From the NCBI GenBank assembly GCA_021204585.1, contig JAJPZC010000128.1:5264-46612 (forward strand): a stretch of DNA of 41,349 nucleotides, written 5' to 3'. The notes beneath the pieces were generated by a model. That model made no database searches. It was not told the DNA's origin and was given only the letters and a program-made list of their open reading frames with translations. Shown piece by piece: positions 2,876 through 8,501 of this stretch. The DNA is from Clostridia bacterium (GTDB lineage: Bacteria; Bacillota; Clostridia; Christensenellales; Borkfalkiaceae). The position numbers were made by a program, and so were the translations under genes. The number at the start of each line of letters is the position of its first letter. The stretch's first letter is position 1.

Positions 2876-2914
2876 CATACAACGCATAATATGCCTCATT
2901 TGAGGCGGATTTTA
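2876..2914 (+). promoter_or_regulatory. 39-bp element upstream of the first paralogue, with GCCTCA palindrome
   Basis: This element is repeated at 4625-4663 with three mismatches. It contains CGCATAATATGCC and the inverted repeat GCCTCATTTGAGGC, followed by a short T run. It ends 28 bp before the start codon. The same position before the paralogous gene suggests a shared control site (promoter and operator, or a leader hairpin), but leftover identity from the duplication is also possible. Confidence 0.6.
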
Positions 2915-2942
2915 TTCAGGTACACCATACGGAGAGAATGAG

Positions 2943-4547
2943 ATGGCAAAGGGCAAAAAGAGACACTTTTTAAACGGAAGAACGCTGGAACCGTTTGCCG
3001 AGTCTGCCTGCGTCCCCTACGGGTTCTTTAAGAATGATCCGATAGAGGAAGTAGGGTTCAGTGACGAGATTGTGGAGATACTTAAACACTATCTGGGCAT
3101 ATCATCGGTTTGGTCAATCATGAATTATTCATCAGCGCAGCTCAGGCGCAGCTGGAGTCTGAGAAATTATGTCAGTGAGGTGATTGATACAGTAGATGAT
3201 TACATCTATGAAGCCATAGAAAAGCGTAAGAAAGAGTATTATGACGACCCGGTGCCTGTATACAAACTCCTTGAGGTAAAGGACATAAGCCGTTACGGGA
3301 ATTATCTCTTGTATGATTTCAACAGGAAGGTGCTGCATTTTGTCCCGGAGGTGTTTGCCCCGCTGAGGGCAAACGGAATCATAACGCTGCAGGATTTCCT
3401 TAAGATGAATCTTGTGGTTTATCATGAATATGCGGAATGCAATGACAAGCAGGTACGCACTATACTGAGCGAGGTCAAGAAAGGACTCCGTTCCATAAGC
3501 AAGGTCCCGTCCCTGGCGTTTCCGCTGGATTCTCCCGGGAAGGACGTCATAATATATCCGCTGCCGGAGGATGCAAGGGAGAGGGTGTCATCGCTTACAG
3601 ATGACCGCATAGCCGGGGACAAAGTGTCTCTGAAAGGCATGACCTCATATGAAAAGGCCCTGTACAACAGATCCAAAGACGCCATAGATGACTGCGGTGA
3701 AGACTTCTATTATGATGTCCTGGATGGCAAGGAAGTCTTTGAAGGGCTGGCAAAGGGTCTTGCGATGTTCTGCTCTCCGGAGATAGAGCTTCTTGAACGC
3801 AAGTCAATGATCCGCAGCCTGTACCTTTCCGTGCCGGAAAAGTTAAGACAGATGCCTGCAAGGGCTCTGTGCCATTATATGAGGCCCCGTTATACCAATA
3901 CAGGCAATGACTGGCCATACAGGGACTGGTGCGGCATAAGGCAGGTTGTCTTTTTCAATGGGTGGGATGCGTTCCGCACAAGCGACAGGATGGTGTCACT
4001 AGAGAAAGCGTTCATGCATATGGAAGAGCTCATGGACAGCTGTTCCACCGTTGATGAACTGGACAAGCTTATTGAAACGGACAATGACGTGCAGTTCATA
4101 GACCTTCTCGACTGGCTTTCCCACGCAACCATGCTCAACGCCATATACGACAGCTTCATGAAGCCTCACAGGCAGCGCAGTCATGAGGCCACGAAGCAAA
4201 TGAAGCAGCGGATAACGGAAACTGATCCGGATGAGGTCATAGCCCGGTTCAATGAACTTAAGAAAATGTCCTTTGACATGCCCCCTGCCGACTTCCCTTA
4301 TTATGATGACAATGACAATTCATTCTGGGATACCTGCCGCGGCTGCAGATATGACTTTTTCTCAGTCTATATGCTGCTCACGGGCAAAACTTCCGTGCCC
4401 GGAGACATCGTGGACGGATTCCTCTACGGGGACGACGCAGATGATTTAAAGAGATATGTGCTGCAAGACAGATATGCTGTATTGCTGTACGGATACAATC
4501 CGGAAACCGGCATGGTTACCATAAATGACGACGCCCTTCAGCAGTAA
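2943..4547 (+). CDS. Unknown 534-residue protein with alpha-CTD-like segments (paralogue A)
   Basis: No family recognised for the whole protein. Residues about 31-80 (IEEVGFSDEIVEILKHYLG onward) follow the hydrophobic pattern of the RNA polymerase alpha C-terminal domain: a helix, a GI(S/K)(T/S) turn, then a further helical segment. A second similar segment lies at about 155-200 (LRANGIITLQDFLKMN). Together with the paralogue at 4686 it shares a conserved middle and C-terminus: SSLTDDRIAGD, DCGE.FYYDV, SVPE..R..PARAL.HY, DPDEVIA.F and YDFF.VYMLLTGKTSVP. No signal peptide or membrane helices; probably cytosolic. AT content is visibly higher than in the flanking housekeeping genes. GGAGAG precedes the start. 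A nucleic-acid-binding or transcription-related role is inference only. Confidence 0.75.
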   Translation: MAKGKKRHFLNGRTLEPFAESACVPYGFFKNDPIEEVGFSDEIVEILKHYLGISSVWSIMNYSSAQLRRSWSLRNYVSEVIDTVDDYIYEAIEKRKKEYYDDPVPVYKLLEVKDISRYGNYLLYDFNRKVLHFVPEVFAPLRANGIITLQDFLKMNLVVYHEYAECNDKQVRTILSEVKKGLRSISKVPSLAFPLDSPGKDVIIYPLPEDARERVSSLTDDRIAGDKVSLKGMTSYEKALYNRSKDAIDDCGEDFYYDVLDGKEVFEGLAKGLAMFCSPEIELLERKSMIRSLYLSVPEKLRQMPARALCHYMRPRYTNTGNDWPYRDWCGIRQVVFFNGWDAFRTSDRMVSLEKAFMHMEELMDSCSTVDELDKLIETDNDVQFIDLLDWLSHATMLNAIYDSFMKPHRQRSHEATKQMKQRITETDPDEVIARFNELKKMSFDMPPADFPYYDDNDNSFWDTCRGCRYDFFSVYMLLTGKTSVPGDIVDGFLYGDDADDLKRYVLQDRYAVLLYGYNPETGMVTINDDALQQ

Positions 4548-4573
4548 CTGCAGCTCTCGCCAGGAGATGCTTC

Positions 4574-4610
4574 AAACTTGCCGTACGCATTCGCATGCAG
4601 CAGATTTTTA
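4574..4610 (+). terminator. Hairpin after paralogue A, AAACTTG family
   Basis: AAACTTG, then an inner CGTACGCATTCGCATGCAG segment, then CAGATTTTT. The outer arms pair imperfectly and end in a T run, resembling a weak rho-independent terminator. It belongs to the same family as the hairpins at 6341-6374 and 7412-7456. Confidence 0.5.
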
Positions 4611-4624
4611 AAGCCCAGTAAGCT

Positions 4625-4663
4625 CATACAGCGCATAATATGCCTCATTTGAGGCAAATTTTA
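4625..4663 (+). promoter_or_regulatory. 39-bp element upstream of the second paralogue
   Basis: Second copy of the element at 2876-2914. A 24-bp core (4632-4655) is identical and includes GCCTCATTTGAGGC. It ends 22 bp before the start codon, ahead of the GGAGGGAG ribosome binding site. It may be a shared operator or leader hairpin. Confidence 0.6.
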
Positions 4664-4685
4664 CACTTCCGGAGGGAGAAGACCA

Positions 4686-6305
4686 ATGGCCAAGCGCAAG
4701 AGACAGCTGATTGAGGACACCAGGTCCAATACATGTCTGTACTATATCCTCAATATCTCCGAAAGCGGCGTCTTTTCCAAAATCCCGCTGGACCATGTGG
4801 GGTTTGATCCTTATATTCTGGATCTGCTGACAAGCCACAGAATAAAGACAATAGGCCAGCTCATTGTTCAGTCACCTGCTTCATTAAGAAAAAAGCGGTA
4901 TCTGCAGGGCCTTGTGATTGATATGTTGGATGCCTTGGATGAGTACTTCTGCAGGGCCTTCGAGAAAGGCAGGAAGGCCTACAATGAGAACCCTTTGCCC
5001 ATTTACAAGCTCCTGGGCCTCGAGGATATCGGCCGCTACAGGAACTTCCTGCTGTATGACTTCAAATCAAGACTGTCTTTTGAGCAGACATATGCAGACC
5101 TCTGTGCACACGGCATCATTACTCTGCAGGACCTCCTGAAGATGAACCTTGTTTCATGGCATGAGATCTGCGCACTGAATGCAGATGTATATGTCCGCCG
5201 GATGCTGCGGGACTTGTCCGCTGGTCTGGACTCAAGAGTGCGCAACATTATTCCCATGGCATACCCTCTGGATGACGCCGGGACGGAGATTATAACATAC
5301 CCGCTGCCGCCTAAGGCCATATATGCCGTCTCATCCCTTACGGATGACCGCATAGCGGGGGATGAGGTGTCCACGGAAGGTCTGACTCCTTATGAAAAGG
5401 CCCTGTATGACAAGACCTGTGAAGCCATAGAGGACTGCGGCGAAGGCTTCTATTATGATGTCATGGACAACAGGGAATTCTTTGAATGCCTTGCCAAAAG
5501 CCTTTCCGTTTTCTGGCCGCCTGCACTTCAGCTCATGCAGCGCAGAACAATGCTGCACAACCTGTACATGTCCGTGCCGGAAAGGTTCCGCAAAATTCCT
5601 GCAAGGGCTCTGTATCATTACAGGGCGCCGCGCCGCAAGGACGGCTTTAAGTGCTCCCCGTATGAAACGTACAATTATTGCCATGACAGGGAAGTGTGGT
5701 GTTTTGCAAGCTGGGAGATTTTCCAGGGCAAGGGCAGAATGATGCCACTGGAGGACTGTTACAGACACCTTGAAAAACAGGCCTGGAATTGCGAGACCAT
5801 AGATGATTTTGACCGGCTGATCGAAGCGGACAGGGACTGGCAGTTTCTGGACCTCCTTTACTGGCTGGGTAGAGTGAGCATGCTCACTGCCATATACGAC
5901 AACTTTCTGCGCTGCGATGAAACCGCTCCGCGTGAGGCTTCGGATGGAATGAAGGCACTGGTCCGGTCCTCTGATCCGGACGAGGTCATAGCCTGGTTTA
6001 CGGCCACAAACCATACAAAGCAGCTGGACACCAGAGTTTTTGAGTACTATGACAGGCCGTACGTTTTCTACTGGTTCAACTTCAGATCCCGTTATACAAC
6101 GTGCAGATACGATTTCTTCGCCGTCTACATGCTCCTCACCGGCAAGACTTCCGTGCCTTTCAGCCTTGCCCGCGGTCTTCTTCATCCGGAAGACGCCATA
6201 AGCCTGAGAAACTTCTTCTATGAGTATTCAGACTCAATCTATCTCTATAACTACAACCCAAAAACGGACACGGTAACCATTAAGCCGCACGCCCTGGAGC
6301 TGTAG
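4686..6305 (+). CDS. Unknown 539-residue protein with alpha-CTD-like segments (paralogue B)
   Basis: Paralogue of the gene at 2943 and similar over nearly its full length. The N-terminal 25 residues differ. Then comes an alpha-CTD-like stretch (about 34-80: PLDHVGFDPYILDLLTSHRI with a following helical region) and a second one around LCAHGIITLQDLLKMN (about 139-185). Strongly shared blocks are SSLTDDRIAGDEVS, YEKALYDK, DCGEGFYYDVMD, SVPERFRKIPARALYHY, DPDEVIAWF and CRYDFFAVYMLLTGKTSVP. The conserved aromatic and acidic blocks suggest a functional fold, but no catalytic motif is recognised. No secretion signal. A strong GGAGGGAG site precedes the ATG. With its paralogue it forms an accessory block of unknown role. 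Confidence 0.75.
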   Translation: MAKRKRQLIEDTRSNTCLYYILNISESGVFSKIPLDHVGFDPYILDLLTSHRIKTIGQLIVQSPASLRKKRYLQGLVIDMLDALDEYFCRAFEKGRKAYNENPLPIYKLLGLEDIGRYRNFLLYDFKSRLSFEQTYADLCAHGIITLQDLLKMNLVSWHEICALNADVYVRRMLRDLSAGLDSRVRNIIPMAYPLDDAGTEIITYPLPPKAIYAVSSLTDDRIAGDEVSTEGLTPYEKALYDKTCEAIEDCGEGFYYDVMDNREFFECLAKSLSVFWPPALQLMQRRTMLHNLYMSVPERFRKIPARALYHYRAPRRKDGFKCSPYETYNYCHDREVWCFASWEIFQGKGRMMPLEDCYRHLEKQAWNCETIDDFDRLIEADRDWQFLDLLYWLGRVSMLTAIYDNFLRCDETAPREASDGMKALVRSSDPDEVIAWFTATNHTKQLDTRVFEYYDRPYVFYWFNFRSRYTTCRYDFFAVYMLLTGKTSVPFSLARGLLHPEDAISLRNFFYEYSDSIYLYNYNPKTDTVTIKPHALEL

Positions 6306-6325: not shown

Positions 6326-6340
6326 CTCCCAACCTGTCTC

Positions 6341-6374
6341 AAACTTGCCGCATGCATCTGCATGCACCAAGTTT
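6341..6374 (+). repeat. Nested hairpin AAACTTG/GCATGC...GCATGC/CAAGTTT
   Basis: Outer arms AAACTTG (6341-6347) and CAAGTTT (6368-6374) are perfectly complementary and enclose inner GCATGC arms around a 4-base loop. It is the best-formed member of a hairpin family also seen at 4574 and 7412. It could act as a weak terminator (TTTCATAT follows) or as an RNA-stability element. Confidence 0.65.
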
Positions 6375-6455
6375 CATATATCTTCAAGCAACTTCAAACA
6401 GCTTAGAATACATTTGACACAGGGCACACACATGCATCCTGTTCAGGGGGAAGAC

Positions 6456-7400
6456 ATGTATTTCAAGACACAGGTTCAGATTCCGTCCGAAGAGGGCAGA
6501 ATCACTCAGATCATCTCATCCAAGGGCGAGGCCCACGTATACTATACGCTCCACGCAAGCTCTGACGCCAAGACAAAGGATCAGCCCTACCGCAAGTGCA
6601 TAGGCCTGGCCTGCCAGGACCAGCCCGGCATGATGTACCCCAACGAGGCCTATGTGGACATGTTCCCGGACAAGTGCCCCACGGACGGCGCAGACCCTGA
6701 GCTTACGGAGTACATCCTGTCTCATTTCCGCATCCAAAGCGGCAAGCTTGTAAGGCTCATGGACTTCCATATTCCCTCAACGCCTGAAGAGATGGAGAAG
6801 AACATTGAGCGCCGCAAGGCCGGCCTTCCGTACTGGTGCAACGACCCGGATCTCTTTGCGGAGCAGCACGTGTACCAGGACAAGATGACGGAGTACAACC
6901 GCACAATGCCCACGGACACAGCGGCCCGCCGGCAGCTCCTTAAAGAGATGTTCGCAGAAATTGGCGATGACTGCATGGTAGAGACCCCCGTAAGCGCAAA
7001 CTGGGGCTGCCATAACGTGCACCTCGGCTGCGGCGTCTATATCAACTCCGGCGTCACCTTCGTTGACGATGCTGACATATGCATCGGAGACAACTGCCTC
7101 ATAGGCACCGGCGTGACCTTCTGCACTGCCGGACATCCTGTTCTTCCTGAGCTCCGCGAGAACGACTACCAGTTCGAACTTCCCATCCGCATAGGCCGCA
7201 ACGTCTGGATAGGCTCCGGCGTCCAGATCATGCCCGGCGTAACGATAGGCGACAACTCCGTCATAGGCGCCGGCAGCGTTGTAACGAAGGACATCCCCGC
7301 CGACGTCGTAGCCTGCGGCGTCCCCTGCAAGGTCCAGCGTGAGATATGCGACCGGGACAAGGAGTTCTACTACAAGGACATGAAGTTCCCTAAGCTGTAA
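6456..7400 (+). CDS. Maltose/galactoside-type O-acetyltransferase with extra N-terminal domain
   Basis: Residues about 112-314 form a LacA/Maa-type acetyl-CoA-dependent sugar acetyltransferase: a Mac-type helical segment (EEMEKNIERRKAGLPY ... YNRTMPTDTAARRQLLKEMF), then left-handed beta-helix hexapeptides, with the expected catalytic His in FCTAGHP (His227) and the C-terminal IGAGSVVTKDIP signature. Normal family members are about 185-205 residues; this product has 314. The extra first ~105 residues (ITQIISSKGEAHVYY ... MMYPNEAYVDMFPD) resemble, from memory, the leader domain of some clostridial transposases; this is uncertain. The start at 6456 was chosen for AGGGGGAAG at ideal spacing; in-frame ATGs upstream lie within spacer. 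Acceptor substrate unknown. Confidence 0.85.
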   Translation: MYFKTQVQIPSEEGRITQIISSKGEAHVYYTLHASSDAKTKDQPYRKCIGLACQDQPGMMYPNEAYVDMFPDKCPTDGADPELTEYILSHFRIQSGKLVRLMDFHIPSTPEEMEKNIERRKAGLPYWCNDPDLFAEQHVYQDKMTEYNRTMPTDTAARRQLLKEMFAEIGDDCMVETPVSANWGCHNVHLGCGVYINSGVTFVDDADICIGDNCLIGTGVTFCTAGHPVLPELRENDYQFELPIRIGRNVWIGSGVQIMPGVTIGDNSVIGAGSVVTKDIPADVVACGVPCKVQREICDRDKEFYYKDMKFPKL

Positions 7401-7411
7401 TTCACCCGTCC

Positions 7412-7456
7412 AAACTTGCTTAAAACTTCTGTATCGCATTTGCGAGTAACAAGTTT
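7412..7456 (+). repeat. AAACTTG...CAAGTTT hairpin after the acetyltransferase
   Basis: AAACTTG (7412-7418) and CAAGTTT (7450-7456) can pair, enclosing a smaller TCGCA/TGCGA stem. Third member of the hairpin family after genes in this block. The rest of the 7401-7619 spacer holds an extended -10-like TGCTACAAT (7567-7575) upstream of the next gene, without a clear -35. Confidence 0.55.
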
Positions 7457-7619
7457 CATTAATGTTGCATATGGCGCCTGCAATGAAGGCGGCATATAAG
7501 CCTACTTGGACTTTTATTACAGGATTTATGAAATAATTCGCAACTGCAGATTTTCTTGAGACAGGATGCTACAATGACGGCGCAAATCATAGGGGGTGCC
7601 GTGCTGAGGCGCATGTTGT

Positions 7620-8147
7620 ATGAGAGAGCTGAGTTTTAATGCGAAGATTCTTTGCGGGGTTCAAGCGTGGATATTTGTGCAGTCATTGCAGGAGACGTGG
7701 TGTTCTGATGAGTTCATTTACAGGTTCATGAACTCCGAAGTGGGATGCGAATTGGATAAGGATTACGCTTTGTATATGAAGCTTTCCGATAAAAATCCGT
7801 ATCAGCGGCTTGTTGATGAGTTCGGGCCTTACAGCAGTGATGACGGCGCTCCATATATGCATGACCAGATGGCATGGATGGGTTATCTGTACAAGTACTG
7901 GGCCTATACCAGGGAGATGTCCAACAAGGGCATATATGCCCTTGTAAAGCCGGAAGTGCTTGTTAAAGCATACGACTTATGCCACACATTGGATATGGAA
8001 GATGCCATCAGGCAGATTAAGGAAAAGAATGGCATTGAGGATTATGAGGACGAAATAGCAAGGGGTGTCAAATTCTTAAGGGAGTACCTTCGCAAGCAGA
8101 AAGAGGCAGAAGCTGCGGCAGACACTGCATACGAGGATGAGCCATAA
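7620..8147 (+). CDS. Unknown 175-residue protein
   Basis: No family recognised. The product is soluble and mostly helical in pattern, with an acidic, charged C-terminus (KKN...EDYEDEIARGVKFLREYLRKQKEAEAAAD). It has aromatic clusters in the middle (YMHDQMAWMGYLYKYWAYTREM) and no signal peptide or membrane helix. The ATG at 7620 has CTGAGG about 10 bases upstream; a GTG after the stronger AGGGGGTG site is blocked by an in-frame stop. TGCTACAAT about 45 bp upstream may be its promoter. AT content is higher than in aspS next door, as in the rest of this accessory block. Whether it works with the upstream acetyltransferase or paralogues is unknown. Confidence 0.65.
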   Translation: MRELSFNAKILCGVQAWIFVQSLQETWCSDEFIYRFMNSEVGCELDKDYALYMKLSDKNPYQRLVDEFGPYSSDDGAPYMHDQMAWMGYLYKYWAYTREMSNKGIYALVKPEVLVKAYDLCHTLDMEDAIRQIKEKNGIEDYEDEIARGVKFLREYLRKQKEAEAAADTAYEDEP

Positions 8148-8228: not shown

Positions 8229-8501
8229 CAACAGAAGAGACAAAAGCTGAGACGGAGAGAAGTAGCGCACCTTATCGCTCACAGAGAGCAGGGGCCGGTG
8301 AAATCCCTGCAGAATGAATCTGCGCGAATAACACTCCCGAGCTGCAGCCTGAAAAGCAATGAGTAGGGTGAGCCGTAAGTTCCACGTTACGGAACGGGAG
8401 TTTTTGTGAACTCCGCAGAGAGCTGCCGTCAAGGCAGAAGTTGGGTGGCACCGCGAACATCGTTCGTCCCGATAGTGAGTATCGGAACGGGCGTTTTTTT
8501 T
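8229..8501 (+). ncRNA. T-box riboswitch, Asn-type specifier, controlling aspS
   Basis: The leader has the hallmark T-box sequence AAGTTGGGTGGCACCGCG (8438-8455), the AGAGAG and GGTGAAA elements of stem I, and a terminator hairpin. The terminator arms, 8461-8473 and 8481-8493, pair at 12 of 13 positions and are followed by T8. The codon in the specifier position reads AAC (8330-8332) followed by ACT, the same context as GGC-ACU in characterised glyQ leaders; AAC is an Asn codon. Uncharged tRNA(Asn) would then promote read-through into aspS. The T-box is certain; the specifier is my alignment by eye. Confidence 0.93.

Follow-up and report, generated by a model that had tools for sequence, protein, structure and literature searches.

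Two tandem genes in a 41,349-nucleotide stretch of the genome of a Clostridia bacterium (Borkfalkiaceae; contig JAJPZC010000128.1, positions 5,264 to 46,612), referred to here as the window, encode members of a lineage-restricted protein family. As judged by profile alignment, this family and a larger protein encoded in the same genome are shown to have a common ancestor and the same order of domains; the larger protein combines RNA polymerase alpha C-terminal domains (alpha-CTDs) with sigma region 4. Gene 1 (2943-4547, forward strand; protein P0001, 534 amino acids) is an intact open reading frame, and gene 2 (4686-6305, forward strand; P0002, 539 amino acids) is its paralogue. The two proteins align over their full length with 238 of 551 positions identical (43%, E 8e-148), which together with the frame coordinates confirms the paralogous pair described in the initial annotation of this DNA. 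The architecture, common to both, consists in gene 1 of an alpha-CTD-derived segment 1 (residues about 32-90), a segment 2 with weaker alpha-CTD likeness (about 133-188), a conserved middle module (about 189-312), the position of a lost helix-turn-helix (about 411-465), and a C-terminal module (about 466-534). Our confidence is evenly divided over the functional reading we prefer, in which this tandem family of alpha-CTD/sigma-like ancestry would now serve as transcription-associated regulators acting through protein contacts. An alpha-CTD/sigma region 4 architecture would thereby have been turned into a tandem family, with its key DNA-binding residues erased and a new middle module under selection.

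Relationship to RNA polymerase alpha and sigma proteins

The initial annotation could place the two proteins in no known family, and searches of Pfam, PHROGs, NCBIfam, and PADLOC likewise gave nothing convincing (best E 0.027). Matches were weak in PHROGs (E 0.027 and 0.12) and NCBIfam (E 0.075 and 0.29), PADLOC returned no family at E≤10 for either protein, and Pfam found an alpha-CTD in neither. The gene 2 protein had no tblastn relative in 61 genomes beyond its own, and no relatives of the window proteins were found in the genome collection, viral contigs, phages, or plasmids. An order-level search with a two-row profile matched three of 395 genomes beyond the bacterium's own (E 0.0017-0.007), and all three matches were rejected: by eye, one sits in a methionyl-tRNA-synthetase-like frame (G342) and one in an unrelated long frame (G175), while the third has internal stops (G212). 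Among the literature titles listed as matches, no paper names this protein architecture, which is not proof of its absence. Relatives came instead from the locus itself. A congeneric genome, G435, carries six further members (a to f), and these with the two window proteins make up the eight-member profile used below.

The larger protein of the same genome is encoded by an 867-amino acid frame on contig C175. A Pfam scan of its first 733 residues identified a pair of alpha-CTDs (E 6e-13) together with a sigma region 4 (E 1.2e-5). Aligned by hhalign to this protein and its G435 orthologue (a 773-amino acid frame on contig C19), the eight-member profile matched over 430 collinear columns (98.3%, score 120.3), whereas the highest score in 20 column shuffles was 22.4 and the reversed profile scored 16.8. 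The C-terminal region alone scored 69.8 (maximum 18.2 in 20 shuffles), and HMMER detected this part in each of the large proteins (E 3.3e-7 and 7.3e-9). Shared between the family and the large proteins are the collinear alpha-CTD segment or segments, a helical middle, the helix-turn-helix position, and the C-terminal module. The family differs in being shorter, in lacking the C-terminal extension, in the loss of Arg265 and Gly296, and in having its own middle module, and a helix-turn-helix-like stretch is present only in members d and f. This homology supports a transcription-linked origin. The C175 gene (L109:4302-6896, encoding an 864-amino acid protein) adjoins what by eye is a tRNA-nucleotidyltransferase-like gene. 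Stretches matching its product occur in frames of 911, 929, and 979 amino acids in genomes G014, G1104, and G875, respectively, and more distant large proteins occur in G054 (1184 amino acids; weak sigma-like match, RpoD E 0.062) and G119 (1043 amino acids).

Profile comparison with alpha-CTDs themselves supports common ancestry, clearly for segment 1 and weakly for segment 2. Segment 1 scored 50.1 against a broad alpha-CTD profile (maximum 16.5 in 40 shuffles) and 36.5 against RpoA alone (shuffle maximum 16.4); segment 2 scored 27.2 against the broad profile (maximum 14.2 in 40 shuffles). When 398 phylum genomes were searched with the family profile at E≤0.001, matches beyond the bacterium's own genome appeared in 11 genomes; nine of these loci were read by eye, the other two were not, and all nine are RpoA. 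Of the 18 PDB chains that matched at E≤10, RNA polymerase alpha accounts for 15 (E 0.016-1.2), the others being two XRCC3 chains (E 0.43 and 1.3) and a prolyl hydroxylase. The PDB support lies in this pattern of matches, each single match being weak. Of the two alpha-CTD-like segments noticed initially, the first thus stands as a matter of ancestry and the second only weakly, and the DNA-contact residues of an alpha-CTD have been lost. Apart from the profile similarity of segment 1, the family departs from RNA polymerase alpha in having no alpha N-terminal domain, no Arg265, and no NLGxKS motif, and in falling below the Pfam cut-off for the alpha-CTD (PF03118).

Several observations weigh against this derivation. 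PF03118 matched one of the eight members, and that one below the cut-off (E 0.035; 14.3 versus 23.8 bits). No PDB chain was significant on its own (best E 0.016). Segment 2 reached 55.9% with the broad profile and 8% with RpoA alone. The hhalign E-values are single-target values, and the three alpha-CTD tests of segment 1 all use the same family profile. Lastly, the middle module compared with the large proteins gave 3.5% and matches nothing, which leaves the part of the family most under selection unexplained.

Lost residues and the conserved middle module

Nine positions that are invariant in all 30 of the best-scoring RpoA CTDs, taken as reference, were examined in a joint alignment with the family. 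Among them are Arg265, Asn268, Gly296, and Lys298, which we take, with this numbering, to be DNA-contact or motif residues. Segment 1 retains none of these four in any of the eight members: the Arg265 position is acidic in seven and tyrosine in one, and the Gly296 position is a gap in all eight. Eight repeats from four large proteins kept both Arg265 and Gly296 throughout. Against this reading, some contact residues are missing from the large-protein repeats as well, with Asn268 kept in 4/8 and Lys298 in 3/8. The segment 2 alignment is too weak for a residue-by-residue reading. Because the key DNA-contact residue and the glycine of the helix-hairpin-helix (HhH) are lost, DNA binding of the alpha-CTD type is predicted to be unlikely for the family. 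Pfam found a helix-turn-helix in none of the eight members, and the stretch resembling one in d and f is visible by alignment only.

The middle module (residues 189-312) is the most conserved part of the family, with 61% mean identity in the closest five members; it also contains 11 of the 24 columns that are invariant across all eight. It is family-specific and is marked by the motif LTDDRIAGD...YEKALY...CG.DFYYDV.

A larger array in a relative

A survey of gene neighbourhoods revealed what the initial annotation had not noticed, namely that the corresponding locus of the relative G435 holds a larger array. This genome was found by searching 61 genus genomes with the acetyltransferase and patatin genes that flank the pair; it shares the edges of the variable stretch, and the gap between them is longer. 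With the eight-member profile, the carriers within the genus are two of 93 genomes, G435 and the bacterium's own (G000). The six G435 members lie at the same locus on contig C82 in the order a, b, c, d, acetyltransferase, IS4-type transposase, e, f, followed by an HTH-DUF3990 gene, a PDC-M42B homologue, and aspS. G435 is listed with 6% contamination; C82 nevertheless has the same gene order as the window on either side of the array. The protein of member d (P0006) has 22 surplus N-terminal residues, its start having been set too early.

Gene 1 is the orthologue of member a (support 100/100), and gene 2 clusters with b and c, with no finer resolution; the gene duplication took place before the two species diverged. 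Across the genus the general gene order is pheA-patatin-rarA, with pheA found at 18/18 and rarA at 17/18 of the congener loci examined (L036-L053), and in G435 member a overlaps the rarA stop codon by one base. No rarA was found in the window or in the preceding 5.4 kb.

Intergenic blocks and hairpins

The initial annotation reported a 39-bp element upstream of both genes. The element is real and measures 42 bp, lying at 2873-2914 before gene 1 and 4622-4663 before gene 2 (both forward strand). The two blocks are identical at 38 of 42 positions and contain a 24-nt identical core that includes the palindrome GCCTCATTTGAGGC (2893-2906 in the first block); their fold z-scores are -2.29 and -3.03, respectively. 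They would be promoter-like blocks or hairpins in the 5' untranslated region. Their local alignment scored 34, whereas 300 shuffles reached no more than 13. As the two genes agree at just 49 of 106 four-fold degenerate sites (28.5% expected from composition), the identity of the blocks is far above neutral, and in the same register agreement falls to 9/39 and 6/28 in the flanks. A 23-mer of the core occurs at these two sites only in the 1.95-Mb assembly, with up to three mismatches allowed. A sigma-70 promoter was considered for the block and set aside, since a promoter scan listed no promoter-like site there; the same scan gave a terminator-like site at 2892-2907, one of 7 in the region versus 6.4 expected.

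Multiple alignments show a diverged form of the block around AATATG upstream of b, c, d, and e in G435, and member d carries an inverted repeat that resembles the palindrome but is not the same. Against a block shared across the family, only that of c beat all of its 200 shuffles in pairwise comparison (16 versus 12), whereas b, e, and f failed, and the test of d used its misplaced start. GCCTCATTTGAGGC is absent from the G435 contig, including the regions upstream of b and c, and the orthologue a, which overlaps rarA, has no block. These comparisons do not bear out the proposal that selection preserved the control site of the duplicated gene. Since the duplication occurred before the two species separated, the near-identical blocks point to recent copying of the intergenic block or to lineage-specific constraint as the more likely explanation. 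The copying perhaps took place when rarA was lost.

A second shared element lies 3' of the genes, 25 and 34 nt past the stop codons (4572-4607 and 6339-6374; 81% identical), with a third, more diverged copy at 7421-7456. The corresponding 37-nt hairpins occupy 4574-4610 after gene 1 (34.7 bits with hairpin model R1), 6341-6377 after gene 2 (46.3 bits), and 7423-7459 after the acetyltransferase gene (42.5 bits), all on the forward strand. Three copies occur in the window and eight in G435, where the IS4-type transposase gene (L054:13078-14172) has the same 3' hairpin and resembles member e in its 5' stretch. Hairpins are found at 10 of 11 internal junctions, namely 3/3 in the window and 7/8 in G435 from a to DUF3990; the junction lacking one is that between d and the acetyltransferase gene, and the count includes neither the outer edges nor the gap of a few bases that separates the DUF3990 gene from the PDC-M42B homologue.

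Covariation analysis gave 81.4% paired cells and a score of 0.212, each reached by 0/500 shuffles; pairs changed on both sides were reached by 9/500 and further pair types by 55/500. Because the alignment was trimmed to the structure and the sequences are related, this covariation is supportive and not proof. Weighing against a conserved structure, two inner pairs are unpaired in 6/10 and 5/10 sequences, and a fold z-score below -2 was obtained for only two of the eight single copies tried.

In the rest of the window, the best hairpin match had an E-value of 4.1. Among 48 further sources (226,503 bases; E≤1), 38 of which are loci of other genomes (36 from congeners) rather than whole genomes, the hairpin was found in the G435 array, plus one weak match (E 0.94). 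This weak copy (L109:4266-4293, 18.1 bits) directly precedes the C175 gene; none precedes its G435 orthologue. A viral contig with the hairpin pattern was dismissed as a chance match, as it falls inside a long coding frame with no array protein near. The hairpin may serve as a sequence tag for finding further such loci.

Proposed function and alternatives

In the reading we prefer, which we infer from the sequences of a family known here from two genomes, the proteins would be intracellular, transcription-associated regulators that work through protein contacts. Their alpha-CTD-like segments may dock on RNA polymerase, on a regulator, or on the large relative. The middle module would be the functional centre, and the proteins are predicted not to bind UP-element-like DNA. 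A separate 5' block probably drives expression of each gene, with the 3' hairpin marking its end. Recombination between the repeated intergenic blocks could allow the array to expand or contract and to swap promoter regions.

A conflict locus, anti-phage or toxin-antitoxin-like, is possible and to us clearly less probable. The paralogues would sense or decoy transcription proteins of invaders, and their DUF3990 and PDC-M42 neighbours would be the effectors. Presence in two of 93 genus genomes is patchy and copy number changes, the G435 array holds the IS4-type transposase, HTH-DUF3990, and PDC-M42B genes, and a PDC-M42B match occurs in the window as well. The alpha-CTD repeats of the C175 protein match a PglW model (E 7.7e-8). 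In type 2 BREX, PglW is reported to contain an alpha-CTD-like domain (PMC12839542), so such domains occur in defence proteins. The resemblances to BREX PglW (alpha-CTD-like repeats) and to MzaA of MZA (sigma region 4), names given by NCBIfam and PADLOC, nevertheless concern the large relative rather than the window proteins and involve generic domains only; literature matches listed for MzaA were unrelated papers. The family itself offers little for this view: PADLOC recognised neither window protein nor member d, and f only as PglW at E 0.08 (a, b, c, and e were not scanned), Pfam found no effector domain, no phage, viral-contig, or plasmid relatives were found, and a DUF3990 remnant was sought in the window and not found. 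The defence-like role raised in the initial annotation is thus suggested by neighbourhood and distribution, while PADLOC gave nothing for the two proteins, and it stays unproven.

It is improbable that the family is in decay, its members being one-time transcription regulators that no longer bind DNA and are drifting with no function left, although alpha-CTD residues and the helix-turn-helix are gone and two copies stand against six in the sister genome. Codon usage might also hint at decay, as G+C content at third codon positions is 0.60 and 0.64 in the two genes, below 13 other genes (0.69-0.77) and above only the PDC-M42B gene (0.56). All eight frames are intact, however, the middle module is well conserved, and the ratio of nonsynonymous to synonymous substitution rates (dN/dS) lies between 0.24 and 0.50 in the nine pairs computed (0.24 for gene 1 and a, 0.32 for genes 1 and 2, and 0.31-0.50 for the other seven). 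These values indicate that the proteins are under purifying selection. For comparison, the ratio is 0.04 and 0.12 for the orthologous patatins, 0.25 for the acetyltransferase, and 0.30 for the paralogous pair of window patatins, so that the family evolves fast only relative to the patatin orthologues; all these ratios are rough, because the synonymous rate (dS) is near saturation.

We give a similarly small chance to the view that the locus is an unrecognised cassette-like array of unlike gene families. These would be the alpha-CTD-derived paralogues, the acetyltransferase, the IS4-type transposase, and HTH-DUF3990, separated by the covarying hairpin and related promoter-like blocks. The paralogues would then be charge-reversed mimics of the alpha tail that titrate or block alpha-CTD-targeting regulators or invader proteins. 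Mimicry of this kind, if true, would be protein-level interference with transcription activation and directly testable. Gene cassette arrays of the integron type offer a comparison, in that unlike genes are each followed by a similar structured hairpin; the hairpin here is short (37 nt), most of the genes are paralogues, and the attC core-site consensus, compared by eye alone, did not fit. No tyrosine recombinase integrase was found by Pfam among 10 further window proteins, the other window frames and the genome not having been searched. Plain duplication is the simpler reading.

Least probable is a generic HhH resemblance with no special kinship to alpha-CTD or sigma-like proteins: the missing HhH glycine, weak matches to RAD51D_N (E 0.13) and POLH-Rev1_HhH (E 0.26), and the XRCC3 chains fit it, but it would leave aside the full-length collinear match, C-terminal module included, to an alpha-CTD/sigma region 4 protein, and RpoA as the external match in phylum genomes and the commonest in PDB.

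Neighbouring genes

The patatin-like, acetyltransferase, and PDC-M42B-matching genes of the window are on the forward strand. The left edge of the variable stretch is formed by two tandem patatin-like genes (1158-1952 and about 2039-2833). Such a tandem pair is present in the window and G435, whereas 51 of the 52 other matching genus genomes have a single gene; the remaining one, G020, has two partial matches on separate contigs. Downstream of gene 2 lies a hexapeptide acetyltransferase gene of the galactoside/maltose type (6456-7400), the one also found within the G435 array, whose protein was searched from 6459, that is, without the start codon. An origin of its N-terminus as an insertion-sequence remnant was rejected, as NCBIfam gave no match there. 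Plasmid DNA matches (16 records) were likewise discounted, all falling in the acetyltransferase gene (12 annotated as acetyltransferase and four lacking annotation there).

The final gene of the variable stretch before aspS encodes a 175-amino acid protein (7620-8147) with a PADLOC PDC-M42B match (E 1e-8). It stands alone in the window, whereas its G435 homologue (L063:5343-6739) comes after the HTH-DUF3990 gene. A T-box leader (RF00230, E 3e-26) lies at 8240-8474, upstream of the aspS-like gene, and its presence would point to the Bacillota. The names pheA, rarA, aspS, gat, and tRNA nucleotidyltransferase are our presumed assignments from reading the sequences.

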